This document shows, piece by piece, positions 43,611 to 50,008 of a stretch of 64,000 nt of DNA. Below the pieces are notes generated by a model. The model was not told the DNA's origin. It did no database searches and saw only the letters and a list, made by a program, of their open reading frames with translations. Numbering within the stretch: the first letter of the stretch is position 1; the number at the start of each line of letters is the position of its first letter. Made by a program: the position numbers and the translations under genes. This DNA comes from Anatilimnocola aggregata (GTDB taxonomy: Bacteria > Planctomycetota > Planctomycetia > Pirellulales > Pirellulaceae), in assembly GCF_007747655.1 (NCBI RefSeq), contig NZ_CP036274.1:6014001-6078000 (forward strand), in the 5' to 3' direction.

Positions 43611-43814
43611 ATGAGCATCATCGTCTGCAGTGTGTGCGAACGAGTCTTCGATACGGCGACATCGACCGCGATGCCGTTTTGCTCGGAACGCTGCAAGACG
43701 ATTGACTTGGGCCGCTGGTTGGGCGAAAAGTACAGCGTGCCTTACGAGCGGACCGAAGACGACGAGGAAGAAGATTCTCCTCCACCGCGCGGTCGAACCA
43801 GTGGCGAAGATTAA
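43611..43814 (+). CDS. yacG: DNA gyrase inhibitor YacG-family zinc protein
   Basis: A 67-residue zinc-finger protein. It has two Cys in CSVCERVFD, two in FCSERC, then KTIDLGRWLGEKY, the YacG signature. In E. coli YacG binds gyrase B and limits its activity. The acidic C-terminus (EDDEEEDSPPP) is common in the family. It closes the dnaJ-grpE-fmdB-like operon and overlaps the 3' end of the convergent membrane gene by 4 bases. Confidence 0.9.
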   Translation: MSIIVCSVCERVFDTATSTAMPFCSERCKTIDLGRWLGEKYSVPYERTEDDEEEDSPPPRGRTSGED

Positions 43815-44485
43815 GCCATCTTCACCGCAGAGTCCGCCACTGCCCAGGGCAATTGCGCGATCGGCCCGCTCGCTCCTATCTTCGCTACCATGGCAATGAG
43901 AATGGTGCCGAAGCGAGTCTCCTGCACGTTGTTCAAGTCGAGTTCAACGTCCAGCAGCCACAAGTCCTCGTCGGTGGTTGCCAGCGGCAATTTCCGGCGG
44001 CGATACGGACGGTAGTGATCGTCGCGCAGAAGGCCATAGATTTCCGCGTAGGCGGGGTCTTCGCTCCCCTCCTCATAAAGCTCGCCCAAGCTGCTTGCCA
44101 ACTTGGCGAGCGCATCAATTGAATACTCGCTTGTCGGACGAAACGTTCCCAAGGCCAGCGCGTGCTTCTGATCCGGACCGATGATGATGCCATGGGCGAG
44201 CAGGGGCTGATAGAGGCCGGGTTGCTGATCGGGATTCTCTCGCATTCCGGTAAATGGTTCGAAGGTCAGGAATGACCAGAGGCATTTCAGGCCATCGCGG
44301 GCCCAGCGAATGCTGACCAGCATGATTACGCCCGCGATCAGCAGAATGCCCCAGCCGAATAGACAGAGGGCAAAGGAGTTACCCAGTTCGTCCCGCACCG
44401 CCTCCGAGGCCGGATGACGGACAAATTGCACCCAATTTTGCCGGAACAGTTCGTCGTTGACTTGGATCGAGTCGTTGGCAGCCAT
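43811..44485 (-). CDS. Membrane-anchored protein, unknown function
   Basis: A 224-residue protein with one strong membrane helix (FALCLFGWGILLIAGVIMLVSI, about 38-59) after a polar N-terminus. The soluble domain holds a PGLYQPLLAHGIIIGPDQKHALALG segment and an acidic EELYEEGSEDPAYAEIYGLL region. No enzymatic motif. It is divergent from the HD-domain gene (91 bases). I recognise no named family. Confidence 0.68.
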   Translation of the reverse strand: MAANDSIQVNDELFRQNWVQFVRHPASEAVRDELGNSFALCLFGWGILLIAGVIMLVSIRWARDGLKCLWSFLTFEPFTGMRENPDQQPGLYQPLLAHGIIIGPDQKHALALGTFRPTSEYSIDALAKLASSLGELYEEGSEDPAYAEIYGLLRDDHYRPYRRRKLPLATTDEDLWLLDVELDLNNVQETRFGTILIAMVAKIGASGPIAQLPWAVADSAVKMA

Positions 44486-44576: not shown

Positions 44577-45908
<1,332 letters not shown>

Positions 45909-45912
45909 GCCA

Positions 45913-46689
45913 TTAGAAGAACTTTGTGCCCGTGCTGGTCTTGGTATCGCGGGCAGGGGAACTGTTATTGCCGGGAACCTGAATGACCACCGCATGTTCG
46001 TTGCGCTGCAATTGCCGAACGAGCACTGCATCGGCAGCGATGGCCTGTAGTTGAAAAGGCCGCCGCGGCGAGATTCGCAGACCAGTTGAGAGCGAAACTC
46101 CAGGCCGATCTTCAGCGGGCAAGAGCTGCAGTGTTGCCTCCATGAGCGAGTCGAGCGGGGCATCGCCAGCCAGAAACACGGGCTGACCTGCGGCCAGCGC
46201 CCAGAGAAGTTTCTCGCAAACAGAATCGTCGAGTGTTGCCGTGAGCACTTGCTTGCCGTCACCCGAGTTGCTCGACGAACGGCCAACAAGTGAGAACGTG
46301 TCGAGCGATTCGGGCGGTTCCCGTCGCGGTTGCGTACGCCCCGCGCTCCGAAAGGCACGTAGGATGGTAAATGGATTGAACTGAAATGGTTCGAGCGCTT
46401 CGTGTGGCAGAATGAACGAATGTGTATAGACCCGACCGCCCGCGCGGCCGCTGTACTCGCTGCCTGCCAGCTGCGTGTAACCAATGCAGACCAGTTCACC
46501 TTCGAGCGGATGCACATTCACACTGGTGCGACCGAGGCGAGTTTCGAGCGAATCGTGCGCGGGCCCCCAATTGCTCAACTGCTGGGCGAGGTCGTCGTCG
46601 ATGCCGCTGCTGCGCGAGGCAAGTTGATATCCGGCCATGCGCTCGCCGCGCAGGCTGGTGAAGATCGCTTGTTCCACGCGGAAGGTCAT
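45913..46689 (-). CDS. GAP1-N-like GTPase-associated protein
   Basis: A 258-residue protein. It begins VEQAIFTSLRGERMAGYQLASRSSGI and continues LSNWGPAHDSL, with a YTHSFILP strand, resembling the N-terminal domain of GTPase-associated protein 1 (GAP1-N2 type), known from GTPase-centred bacterial conflict systems. Naming rests on pattern memory and should be checked by profile. The rest is diverged, ending in a polar Ser/Thr/Asn tail. It lies last in the minus-strand set, 119 bases after the zinc-ribbon GTPase, with a palindromic element between them. Confidence 0.72.
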   Translation of the reverse strand: MTFRVEQAIFTSLRGERMAGYQLASRSSGIDDDLAQQLSNWGPAHDSLETRLGRTSVNVHPLEGELVCIGYTQLAGSEYSGRAGGRVYTHSFILPHEALEPFQFNPFTILRAFRSAGRTQPRREPPESLDTFSLVGRSSSNSGDGKQVLTATLDDSVCEKLLWALAAGQPVFLAGDAPLDSLMEATLQLLPAEDRPGVSLSTGLRISPRRPFQLQAIAADAVLVRQLQRNEHAVVIQVPGNNSSPARDTKTSTGTKFF

Positions 46690-46723
46690 GAGGAATTACT
46701 TTCCAGCGAGCTACTTTGCCTAG

Positions 46724-46800
46724 GTAGCCCGACGCATCAGCGCGGGAGATTCGCCGATAACATCGTGCTTCAGTTCACCCTCGCTGACGCGTCGGGCTAC
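46724..46800. repeat. Palindromic element between the GTPase and GAP1-like genes
   Basis: A 19-base arm (46724-46742) pairs with 46782-46800 at 18 of 19 positions, with a 39-base loop. The sequence GTAGCCCGACGC(A/G)TCAGCG is similar in style to the element at 41298-41373. It could separate or attenuate transcription between the two genes. Confidence 0.75.
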
Positions 46801-46808
46801 GTGGGGAA

Positions 46809-47714
46809 CTACCGTGCCACTTCTTCCAGCAGCCAGTGGAAGGGCTCGACCACGCCGCGCGGCTCGATTCGCAGCGGGACGTGAACCCGGCCGCGACCTT
46901 CGAGCCGGTAGCCACAGGCACCGGCCACTCCCGCAGCGAAGAAGGCATGCCGTTTCAACCGTTCACGACATTGCACGTATAAGCCTGGCGTATGACGTCG
47001 GGCAAATTGCTGCGGATCGTCAAAGCAGTGATCGCACTGATCGGCCTTGGTGAAGACGAGCGCGACGGCTTTGCTCGCCCAGCCCGTTTTCTTATCGGCT
47101 TGCAGTTCGCACAAGTAGCTGAGCAGCTTCATCGCGCGAAAATCCTCGTCCGCTTCACCGGCCTGACAGCGGAGCGCGTCGATCAGCACGAGTACGCCCG
47201 AGCACTTGCCCAGGAAAGCCCGAATCACCGGGTAAGTATTGGGATGGTCGATCTCTTCCAACAGCGCTTCTCCAGCCAGGTCGGGAAGAATCAATTCCAC
47301 GGGCTTCAGTTTTTTGCGAAGAATTTGACAATGGACCCAGTTCCAGCGATCCGGTTCGTTCGGCGTCTTGGCAGGAAACTCACAGCGGGCCAGCGCGGCC
47401 ATTGTTCGCTCTTGCAAGCCAATCGAGAACGCTCCCCGCGCAAGAAGTTGCAGGTCGTCGCGCCCCTTCGAGAGCATATCGGCCAGCATGCCGAGGTACA
47501 CCGTCTTGCCTGCGCCAGATGAACCGATCGCCGCGACCATCCGTGGATGAATCTTCTGCGAGTTGGCTTGATGGACGAGTGCCATTGGCGCATAGCAATG
47601 TCGGCAAAGCTCTGCATCGAAGTTGTTGCCGCCGCCGCAAATGTAACAGGGGCACGAGACCGTGTACTGAGCCAGGCGATAGGAATCGAGTTCGAGTTGT
47701 CCGGTCGCTCTCAT
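46809..47714 (-). CDS. Zinc-ribbon P-loop GTPase (double-GTPase/TRAFAC type)
   Basis: A 301-residue protein with an N-terminal zinc ribbon (CYIC, 23-26, and CRHC, 37-40) and a GTPase domain. The P-loop is GSSGAGKT (64-71), switch II is DLAGE (145-149), and the guanine-specificity motif is TKAD (222-225). This fits the DO-GTPase2-like group found with GAP1 proteins. It starts on an ATG overlapping the stop of the FGE-like gene (ATGA), so the two are translationally coupled. The zinc ribbon may bind the partner proteins. The function is inferred as signal-gated switching; no biochemistry is known to me. Confidence 0.85.
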   Translation of the reverse strand: MRATGQLELDSYRLAQYTVSCPCYICGGGNNFDAELCRHCYAPMALVHQANSQKIHPRMVAAIGSSGAGKTVYLGMLADMLSKGRDDLQLLARGAFSIGLQERTMAALARCEFPAKTPNEPDRWNWVHCQILRKKLKPVELILPDLAGEALLEEIDHPNTYPVIRAFLGKCSGVLVLIDALRCQAGEADEDFRAMKLLSYLCELQADKKTGWASKAVALVFTKADQCDHCFDDPQQFARRHTPGLYVQCRERLKRHAFFAAGVAGACGYRLEGRGRVHVPLRIEPRGVVEPFHWLLEEVAR

Positions 47715-48916
47715 GCGGCGGCCTCCTGTTCTTCGGTCTCAGACGAATTTTGATAACTGGCGACGTCGCAGAAGCCGACGGCGCAACGAAACCCAATGTT
47801 GTGTTTGCGGGCCAGCGGGCTTTCGCCGCTTTGAAAGTGCAGATGACATTGCGAATCGAAGTAAGTGTCGAACGCGCCGCCGCGGATGCTGCGCATCGGC
47901 GTCGCCGTTTCGATCTTCAAATTAGCCAGATCCCACACTCCAAAGCTGGTGCTGGTCCACTCCCACACGTTGCCAACCAACTCTTGCACCCCACCCACAC
48001 TCGCCCCGAGTGGGCGGCCGAACGTGCTGGTGGTATCGTCACGGCCGCTGCCCCAAACATGAACCAGCGAACGATCCAGCGCATCGCCCCACGGGTAACG
48101 CCGCTGTTGGGGCGGGGCTCCGTCGGCGACGACAGGCCAAGCGCCGGCCTTGACCCACTCGGGATCCGTAGCCAGACGCTTGCCCGCCCAACGGGCATAG
48201 GCGGCCGCTTCATACCAACAAATGCCGACCACCGGATGTTGTCGCTTCTCGTCGGTTGGGTGGCCATGCTTCCAATAACGAGGCCCCGAGAGGCCGCTTG
48301 AATCGACGAAGCCGAGTACTGCGGGCCAGATCGTGGCATCCCACAAGTTCATCTGCTCGTAGCCGCCGTCCTGGACAAAGCGAAGATAGGCTTCGTTCGT
48401 CACGGGGTAGCGATCGAGAAAGTAGCCGTCGACATCGACCGTCCGCTCATTGCGTGCGAGTTCATCTTCGTCCATATCTTCGAAGCGACGGGGCCGCATA
48501 ATTACGGGACCGCCGGGAACGCACGACATGTTCGCATCGAGTGCTTGTTCTGCGGCGTACAGTTGATCGGGCTGCAAATTGTTGGCAATCTGCGGCCTGA
48601 GAAGCAGCGAATAGCGACCTGCTGCCAGCATCTTCTGGACGAGATCACCTTCTGGTTCGGCATCGCGTTCTGCAGCGGCCATCAAACTGGTGAAGGAAGC
48701 AGTCGCATCGGTCGAAGAACCATTCGCCCCTGACTTGCGCCCATAACGATTCCACGCCAGGTAGCCCAGTCCAGCCACCGCGCCCGAGGCACCTGCGGCC
48801 CACTGCTCGCTCTGCCAGGCAAGTGCCAGACATGCGGGGACAGATGCGCCAGCCGCCCACGTGGGCCAACTCACGGGCAAATTGTGCAGAATCTTTGAAT
48901 TCAAAGCCACACTCAT
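47711..48916 (-). CDS. FGE/SUMF1-domain protein with membrane segment
   Basis: A 401-residue protein. N-terminal hydrophobic stretch (about 12-50), charged linker, then a C-terminal formylglycine-generating-enzyme (SUMF1/EgtB/PvdO) fold from about 135: DGYFLDRYPVTNEAYLRFV, HPVVGICWYEAAAYARWAGKRL, GNVWEWTST, RGGAF, and GFRCAVG. Real FGE activates sulfatases, but this gene lies inside a GTPase module, not with a sulfatase, so a ligand-binding or scaffold role is more likely. The ATG at 48916 with GGAG 6 bases ahead is preferred over the ATG at 48928. The gene overlaps the GTPase start (ATGA). Confidence 0.88.
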   Translation of the reverse strand: MSVALNSKILHNLPVSWPTWAAGASVPACLALAWQSEQWAAGASGAVAGLGYLAWNRYGRKSGANGSSTDATASFTSLMAAAERDAEPEGDLVQKMLAAGRYSLLLRPQIANNLQPDQLYAAEQALDANMSCVPGGPVIMRPRRFEDMDEDELARNERTVDVDGYFLDRYPVTNEAYLRFVQDGGYEQMNLWDATIWPAVLGFVDSSGLSGPRYWKHGHPTDEKRQHPVVGICWYEAAAYARWAGKRLATDPEWVKAGAWPVVADGAPPQQRRYPWGDALDRSLVHVWGSGRDDTTSTFGRPLGASVGGVQELVGNVWEWTSTSFGVWDLANLKIETATPMRSIRGGAFDTYFDSQCHLHFQSGESPLARKHNIGFRCAVGFCDVASYQNSSETEEQEAAA

Positions 48917-48943
48917 TGGCAACTCCATGCGGGGTACCAGGAA

Positions 48944-50008
48944 CTATTTCTTCTTCCGCCGCTGGGCAACATCTTTTTGCAGGCGGGCGAACTGAGCCAT
49001 TACAGAGTTCACAACGGGGTCAGCAGGCTGAGCATCGGCACCAGTGCTTTGAGGTGCTGTGGCATTCGGCACCGCCGCAGTGACCTGCGGACCTGTCGGT
49101 GCCAATGCACGTTCGAATGGCTGGCTCTTGCGGCTGAGCGACGAGAGTTGACTCTCAATGACCGACTTGAGTTGCCGCAGTTCGTCGGAAACATCGTCAT
49201 GCTGCTGCGCAAGTTGATCCTGCTGATCGGCAACCACTTCTTGCAGTTCGCAGGCCCGCGTACGGACAAGTTCCAACTCTGTTTCCAGGCGATCGCGTTC
49301 TCGCAGGACTTCGCCATGCGATTTTTCTAGCGACCGCTGTTCTTGCCGCAGCGCTTCGAGTTGCTGCTGCATGTCGCTAAGTTGTTGCGGCAATACACTC
49401 CCCGCACTGTGATCGGCGGAGACGACAGAGACTCGTCCCACGGCATCGGCCAATTCGGTGCGAGTCGACAGTACATCCTGCCGCACAGCGTCGAGTTGCG
49501 AGAGGACGGTCAACCAGGAATCGTCGGAATTGCCGTTGTTGGCCGCAATGTTTCCATCGGCAGTGAAGACAGGCGCTCGGTTTTCCAAGTCGCGAATGCG
49601 CAAGAGCAACTGTTCGCGCTCGGTCAAGGCTAGCGATAGCTGCTGCGCTGTGGTCTCGCGATATCGCTCTTCCCGTTCATTGGCAGCTAGTCGCTCTTGC
49701 TCAATCTGCCCTCGTAACTGCTGCAGTTCCCCAATCGCTGCATCAAGCCGAGCCTCTTGATGTTCGAGTTGATGCGTCAGCCGCCCACTCTCTTTCCGCT
49801 GCTCGGCCAATTGCCGGCCGCGTTCGGCCAGCCGAGAACGCGCGTCGTCGACCTCTGCCATCTTCAGCTGCAATTGATCGCGAAGCTGTTCGACATCGGC
49901 AAAGACGTCATTCATCAAGCGGTCGAAGGAGGTAAACTCTTCGCGCAGTTGCAGCGCAACCGCCCGCAAGGGTTCGCCAGCTGCCGGCTGAAAATTGGAA
50001 ATTGCCAC
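48944..50008 (-). CDS. Long coiled-coil protein
   Basis: A 354-residue protein made mostly of heptad coiled coil (about 20-130 and 195-290; for example LREEFTSFDRLMNDVF, then QLRDQLQLKMAEV, and QQQLEALRQEQRSLEKSH). A less-ordered Ala/Pro/Thr tail ends in a basic RLQKDVAQRRKKK. GTG start. It is first in the set coiled coil - FGE-like - GTPase - GAP1-like, with 27 bases to the FGE-like start. No membrane segment, so probably a cytoplasmic scaffold. I see no known domain. Confidence 0.78.
   Translation of the reverse strand: MAISNFQPAAGEPLRAVALQLREEFTSFDRLMNDVFADVEQLRDQLQLKMAEVDDARSRLAERGRQLAEQRKESGRLTHQLEHQEARLDAAIGELQQLRGQIEQERLAANEREERYRETTAQQLSLALTEREQLLLRIRDLENRAPVFTADGNIAANNGNSDDSWLTVLSQLDAVRQDVLSTRTELADAVGRVSVVSADHSAGSVLPQQLSDMQQQLEALRQEQRSLEKSHGEVLRERDRLETELELVRTRACELQEVVADQQDQLAQQHDDVSDELRQLKSVIESQLSSLSRKSQPFERALAPTGPQVTAAVPNATAPQSTGADAQPADPVVNSVMAQFARLQKDVAQRRKKK

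Follow-up and report, generated by a model that had tools for sequence, protein, structure and literature searches.

A conserved GTPase module of planctomycetes with a predicted longin-DENN-like GAP1 regulator and a putatively inactive FGE-fold adapter

The window analyzed here is a stretch of 64,000 nucleotides (positions 6,014,001-6,078,000) of the 9.0-Mb chromosome of the planctomycete Anatilimnocola aggregata. It carries on its minus strand a set of four genes which code, in this order, for a coiled-coil protein, a protein with the fold of the formylglycine-generating enzyme (FGE/SUMF1), a zinc-ribbon Ras-like GTPase and a GAP1 protein (Table 1). A preliminary description, made from the sequence alone, had grouped these four genes and had noted a coupling of the FGE and GTPase genes. 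The open reading frames are indeed found together and the ATGA overlap which joins the two genes is real. The family assignments proposed at that time agree with profile searches against Pfam. The GTPase matches DO-GTPase1/2 (PF19975, E = 2e-12; PF19993, E = 9.7e-12), the FGE-fold protein matches FGE-sulfatase (PF03781, E = 2.9e-38) and the GAP1 protein matches GAP1-N2 (PF20013, E = 9.4e-16), in all cases above the curated cut-offs.

Table 1. Positions of the module genes and associated sequence features in the window
Feature	Position	Strand	Basis
Coiled-coil gene, 354 aa, GTG start	48944..50008	-	Open reading frame; homologues directly upstream of FGE
FGE/SUMF1-fold gene, 405 aa, predicted catalytically dead	47711..48928	-	PF03781; family-invariant motifs
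Zinc-ribbon Ras-like GTPase gene, DO-GTPase family, 301 aa	46809..47714	-	PF19975/PF19993; AlphaFold2 model
P-loop (Walker A) codons of the GTPase, residues 64-71	47502..47525	-	GSSGAGKT in the translation
GAP1 gene, 258 aa	45913..46689	-	PF20013; AlphaFold2 model
Arg82 codon of GAP1, candidate catalytic arginine (putative role)	46444..46446	-	Invariant in 64 homologues
REP-like palindrome GTAGCCCGACGCRTCAGCG, GTPase/GAP1 gap	46724..46800		Arms 46724-46742 and 46782-46800

A neighbourhood survey, as the preliminary description had proposed, shows that the four genes recur as a module. The survey covers 99 independent module loci, and the fractions count the loci with sufficient flank. The FGE gene is located directly upstream of the GTPase gene in 93 of 93 loci and the GAP1 gene directly downstream in 93 of 96. 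The coiled-coil gene precedes the FGE gene in most loci, although its length and sequence vary. The composition is constant over the 99 loci with no swapped effectors, and among the clustered neighbours of the module loci no recurrent variable effector was found. The distances of the FGE-fold proteins and the GTPases correlate with r = 0.80; against RpoB the values are 0.37 and 0.49. When 84,980 species genomes were scanned, 80 loci were kept; these are planctomycete by title except for two, a bin labelled Nealsonbacteria (probably a mislabelled metagenome-assembled genome) and one genome named simply "bacterium". Blastopirellula marina, Singulisphaera acidiphila, Tautonia sociabilis and Roseimaritima sediminicola are among the organisms represented. 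The module is present as a single copy in the genome of the window, and 34 of 60 relatives have a homologue of the GTPase (E ≤ 0.001).

In the GTPase tree a clade 2 (support 100/100), composed of Isosphaeraceae and some Pirellulaceae, stands apart from all other sequences. The window belongs to the latter (clade 1), and its own family, the Pirellulaceae, is represented in both clades. The GTPase distances are 0.52 within clade 2 and 0.64 between the clades. RpoB distances fail to part the clades (0.25 within clade 2, 0.22 between); these distances were computed from the correct reading frames, and the RpoB tree had five genomes in the wrong frame. Judged from these sequence comparisons, the two GTPase clades within one family likely reflect an ancient paralogy or a transfer.

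The GTPase has a P-loop (GSSGAGKT), a G3 motif (DLAGE) and a G4 motif (TKAD). In an alignment of 20 homologues G64, G69, K70 and T71 of the P-loop are invariant, and D145-LAG-E149 as well as K223/D225 are conserved. Likewise invariant are C23/C26/C37/C40, which form the single CxxC..CxxC zinc ribbon already recognized in the preliminary description. E149 provides the Walker-B glutamate of the DO-GTPases and could, by motif alignment, be the counterpart of Gln61 of Ras. A sequence profile of the GTPase against solved structures gave nothing above noise. The AlphaFold2 model (predicted local distance difference test score, pLDDT, 88.9) has the Ras/Arl/Rab fold with Z about 17 and a root mean square deviation (rmsd) of 2.5-3 Å over about 165 residues. 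The earlier suggestion that this protein is the switch of the set holds up.

The FGE-fold protein aligns to solved FGE and EgtB; among solved structures its best relatives are EgtB and OvsA, followed by FGE. These relatives would speak for an active enzyme, with formylglycine or EgtB/OvsA-like C-S/C-Se chemistry, which is controlled or supplied by the GTPase. However, the invariant motifs of the family are GGAFDTYF and RK.NIGFRCA, and the family has not retained the cysteine pair of FGE. The first site is an invariant Asp-Thr-Tyr and the second is Ala in 93% of 94 homologues, Cys361 of the window's protein being an exception. Furthermore a DinB-like domain is lacking, in place of which the N-terminus is either hydrophobic or short. 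We consider an active enzyme highly improbable and take the protein to be a pseudo-enzyme which serves as a binding module. This agrees with the preliminary description, which had noted that no sulfatase lies beside it and had proposed a sensor or adapter; an adapter holds up, a sulfatase activator does not. That it is also a membrane protein applies to many relatives but not clearly to the window's own protein. N-terminal transmembrane helices are predicted for 50 of 73 homologues of clade 1 and for none of 20 of clade 2. In the window the hydrophobic stretch at the N-terminus is weak and a transmembrane helix is not clearly recognizable, the best hydropathy over 19 residues being 1.14 and below the threshold.

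The coiled-coil protein of the window ends in a conserved tail, DPVVNSVMAQFARLQKDVAQRRKKK, encoded at approximately 48947-49021. The consensus of this tail is about SVMAQFxxLQ+DxxxRR in clade 1 and QFQQLRREI in clade 2. The motif is present in 50 of 79 genes upstream of FGE versus 1.5% of random background open reading frames, a contrast which is descriptive because the motif was written after some of the sequences had been seen.

In the GAP1 protein of the window GAP1-N2 is the only domain that scores; the Pfam search revealed no similarity to DENN or longin families. Close homologues have a sub-threshold GAP1-M, GAP1-C is unmatched, and the helical C-terminal domain of long homologues is absent from the window's protein. 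Two loci (L051:7384-7740 and L052:5995-6351) encode downstream of the GTPase a helical protein of 118 aa which matches only this C-terminal domain. From these proteins GAP1 appears to be splittable into two parts. The AlphaFold2 model of the window's GAP1 (pLDDT 91.9) shows for residues 3-115 the strand/helix order bbabbbaa as in longin domains, followed by a second alpha/beta half. The predicted layout is longin-like for residues 1-125 and DENN-like for residues 138-240, both approximately. With Foldseek two matches are below E = 0.001, DENND1B (E = 4.6e-5) and DENND1A, both from complexes with Rab35. Over about 206 residues the VIA comparison is led by DENND10 (Z = 9.0), DENND1A (8.8) and DENND1B (8.7); on this scale models that have no true match commonly reach best Z values of 7-8, thus a Z of 9 alone is modest. 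The next matches are a Lokiarchaeal longin (Z = 6.9), TagF (6.8), FLCN/FNIP chains, GATOR1 longins, Lst4, Sec22b, SEDL and Ykt6. The matches to FLCN complexes have an rmsd above 30 Å and are not used as evidence. The leading matches are mostly either regulators of small GTPases which contain a longin domain or longin domains as such. We find the match to DENN credible because the list of families is consistent and the partner of GAP1 is a Ras-like GTPase.

Arg82 of GAP1 is invariant in 64 of 64 aligned homologues and is placed by the model in the loop between the longin strands 4 and 5. Longin-DENN proteins act as GTPase-activating proteins (GAPs) by means of an arginine finger, for example Arg147 in SMCR8 (PMC8213707) and Arg78 in NPRL2 and Arg164 in FLCN (PMC7464330). 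Our hypothesis is that Arg82 is equivalent to these arginine fingers. GAP1 resembles the eukaryotic longin-DENN regulators (DENND1A/1B, FLCN, SMCR8-C9orf72, and the longins of NPRL2/3) in its predicted longin plus DENN-like arrangement, in its coupling to a GTPase of the Ras superfamily and in the invariant arginine of the longin domain. Unlike these, it is bacterial, has no detected sequence similarity to them, has no d-DENN helical domain and is known from a model. A fold similarity also exists to TagF (PDB 9t0n, 6iz8, 2qnu; Z = 6.8 over 202 residues for 9t0n), a regulator of the type VI secretion system (T6SS), and TagF may be a further member of this longin-DENN-like group. A further likeness to T6SS is an FHA protein encoded in the clade-2 operons described below; T6SS genes were not recognized in the proteins scanned. 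We know of no GTPase partner in the TagF pathway.

In clade 2 the module is part of a chemosensory operon. At one locus (L155) this operon encodes a REC protein, a small helical protein, CheW, a methyl-accepting chemotaxis protein (MCP) with two transmembrane helices, CheA with the domains Hpt-HATPase-CheW-REC, a REC-DUF4388 (PATAN) protein and an FHA-coiled coil protein. Its final genes are those for the coiled coil, FGE, GTPase and GAP1. The same layout is repeated in four further genomes (L154, L156, L157, L158). By tblastn, CheA and/or REC-PATAN are encoded upstream of the module in 17 of 18 loci of clade 2 versus 0 of 49 loci of clade 1, counting loci with 5 kb or more of upstream sequence (Fisher 5e-15, uncorrected for relatedness). 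DUF4388 is confined among the 60 relatives to the five clade-2 genomes and genome G009. In the latter a clade-2-type REC-PATAN protein is encoded at L205:3-1877 with no GTPase module adjacent. For the window's clade we rejected a link to a Che array. The genome of the window has three Che clusters at other places, none of them orthologous in make-up.

The operon invites comparison with MglA/MglB of Myxococcus xanthus, whose reversals are driven by the Frz chemosensory system (PMC6785124). Both have a Ras-like GTPase and a longin-related regulator, and in clade 2 also a complete CheA/MCP array with response regulators, one of them a PATAN protein. The module could thus be a switch of polarity or of surface appendages, with a Frz- or Pil-Chp-like array in control in clade 2. 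Isosphaera pallida, a member of the Isosphaeraceae and thus of a clade-2 family, is according to PMC3072084 the first heterotroph for which phototaxis is known. However, the partner in the module is a longin-DENN-like GAP1-N2 protein and not a roadblock homodimer as MglB, and the FGE and, in clade 2, FHA components of the module have no counterpart there. Pilus or gliding genes were not found next to the module, and in the window's clade an array is not linked. Flagellar co-occurrence is uninformative, FliG_C being present in 57 of 60 relatives with and without the module. This more specific version of our explanation is possible but, in our view, rather doubtful.

Sets of this kind are already known, because planctomycete GAP1-N2/DO-GTPase sets with FGE-fold proteins were described in 2020; the preliminary description had thought the system possibly new. 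Kaur et al. (2020, eLife 9:e52696; PMC7159879) defined the DO-GTPase/GAP1 systems and proposed from the genome context a role in conflict. Their GAP1-N2 systems include planctomycete ones which have either FGS (FGE-fold) effectors or GYF proteins. Like these systems the module has a zinc-ribbon TRAFAC GTPase with the Walker-B glutamate and GAP1-N2 encoded just downstream, and like the planctomycete cases it includes an FGE-fold protein. It differs in being a constant four-gene set with a single GTPase and a short GAP1 without recognizable GAP1-C, and in its location within a chemosensory operon in the sister clade. An FNIII component is not present among the module and flanking window proteins scanned, FNIII not having been searched in every locus.

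Could the module be a conflict system of the GAP1-N2/DO-GTPase class, directed against phages or serving self/non-self recognition, in which the FGE-fold protein acts as an effector or a sensor? The shared core families, the shared order of GTPase and GAP1 and the FGS effectors of the planctomycete systems would suggest so, and the patchy presence in relatives and the incongruence of the gene tree with RpoB would fit as well. However, the partner set is constant over the 99 loci without swapped effectors, there is one module copy per genome, and groEL, dnaJ and grpE are found in its neighbourhood. The PADLOC defence profiles gave only chance matches by coiled coil or fold (coiled coil, subtilase and dGTPase). 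Moreover, canonical GAP1-N2 sets, GYF-type ones among them, are present in relatives as separate loci (L207:6078-13580, L208:6176-13862, L206:6349-9217). These consist of a zinc-ribbon GTPase and a long GAP1 with GAP1-M above the cut-off; L207 and L208 add a protein of about 970 aa (975 aa) without Pfam match and a GYF-like (GYF_2) protein. Because of the constant partners, the single copy and the integration into a Che operon we favour signalling and regard a conflict role as unlikely. Of the possibly "new conflict or signalling system" of the preliminary description the signalling part is retained.

We suggest, with a probability of roughly two in three, that the four genes form a conserved membrane-proximal GTPase signalling module of planctomycetes in which GAP1 is the regulator and the FGE-fold protein a catalytically dead adapter. 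Starting from the observed gene content and order, the family membership, the predicted folds and the clade-specific Che linkage, we envisage the following mechanism. The Ras-like zinc-ribbon GTPase would be the switch and GAP1, with its predicted longin-DENN fold, would regulate it by direct contact. GAP1 would preferably act as a GAP through the invariant Arg82; it could alternatively be a guanine nucleotide exchange factor (GEF) or an effector adapter. The FGE-fold protein, presumably dead as an enzyme, would build the scaffold together with the coiled-coil protein and its conserved C-terminal tail for docking, which in many relatives would be anchored in the membrane. In clade 2 the module probably serves as output for a CheA/MCP array dedicated to it, reached through the REC-PATAN and FHA proteins. 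The membrane anchor may be provided there by the receptor array and in clade 1 by the FGE-fold protein. In the window's clade the array is unlinked, and the genome of the window lacks REC-PATAN. The downstream target might be surface behaviour or cell polarity. Tentatively, and at somewhat below even odds, we propose that planctomycetes use a bacterial longin-DENN-type regulator paired with a Ras-like GTPase as output of a chemosensory array.

Several observations weigh against this signalling role. About half of the sampled relatives do not have the module and the GTPase tree disagrees with RpoB; thus the module is neither essential nor purely vertical, and both observations are also compatible with a role in conflict. 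The similarity of GAP1 to DENN proteins is purely structural (Z = 9, rmsd about 5 Å), and a profile of GAP1 against the PDB sequences found no relative, with nothing above noise. The Che link is absent from all loci examined of the window's clade, and DUF4388 from the genome of the window. Finally, G009 has REC-PATAN without the module, which may have been lost from this genome.

The gap between the GTPase and GAP1 genes contains a repetitive extragenic palindrome (REP)-like sequence. A 23-mer of it occurs in 87 genomic copies at ≤1 mismatch (reversed control 0), and the same gap in a congeneric genome has no such palindrome. The palindrome is a dispersed repeat of the host genome and not a conserved part of the module and, because the congeneric locus is without it, a recent insertion within the operon. 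Scans for promoters, terminators and RNA families found nothing. A plasmid location was rejected with zero matches among 72,556 plasmids. The module is adjoined by an HD/HD_assoc_2 protein (44577-45908, plus strand) and by a 224-aa protein with a single transmembrane helix and without Pfam match (43811-44485, minus strand), both in the same genus only. The preliminary description had offered this HD protein or an S8 protease as effector. We reject both and place them outside of the module because neither is conserved at homologous loci; the HD protein is kept in the same genus only and the S8 protease not even there. In many clade-1 loci carA, coding for the small subunit of carbamoyl-phosphate synthase, lies just downstream of GAP1 on the opposite strand (for example L038, L041, L044, L063, L067, L095, L109 and L119); a functional link is not obvious.

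As far as the literature searched shows, the invariant four-gene composition, the predicted longin-DENN fold of GAP1 and the chemosensory operon are new. A longin/DENN fold of GAP1 is not mentioned in PMC7159879, and our literature search found no prior report linking longin/DENN with GAP1 or a planctomycete Che class with a GTPase, which is not proof of novelty. A study of 2012 knew the DENN and d-DENN domains only in the DENN module and treated this as a eukaryotic GEF module (PMC3521125).

The GAP1/DO-GTPase sets are listed as conflict systems, for which there is no proof by experiment. Should GAP1 be a longin-DENN regulator, these sets need to be re-read as regulatory pairs of small GTPases. 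For this phylum, in which signalling is little known, the clade-2 operon offers a concrete and testable pathway from a receptor array to a GTPase. If our suggestion is true, planctomycetes would have a GTPase signalling pathway that does not belong to the MglA/MglB family and, possibly, a bacterial counterpart to the eukaryotic longin-DENN regulators, and such a partner would bear directly on the origin of eukaryotic GTPase regulation.

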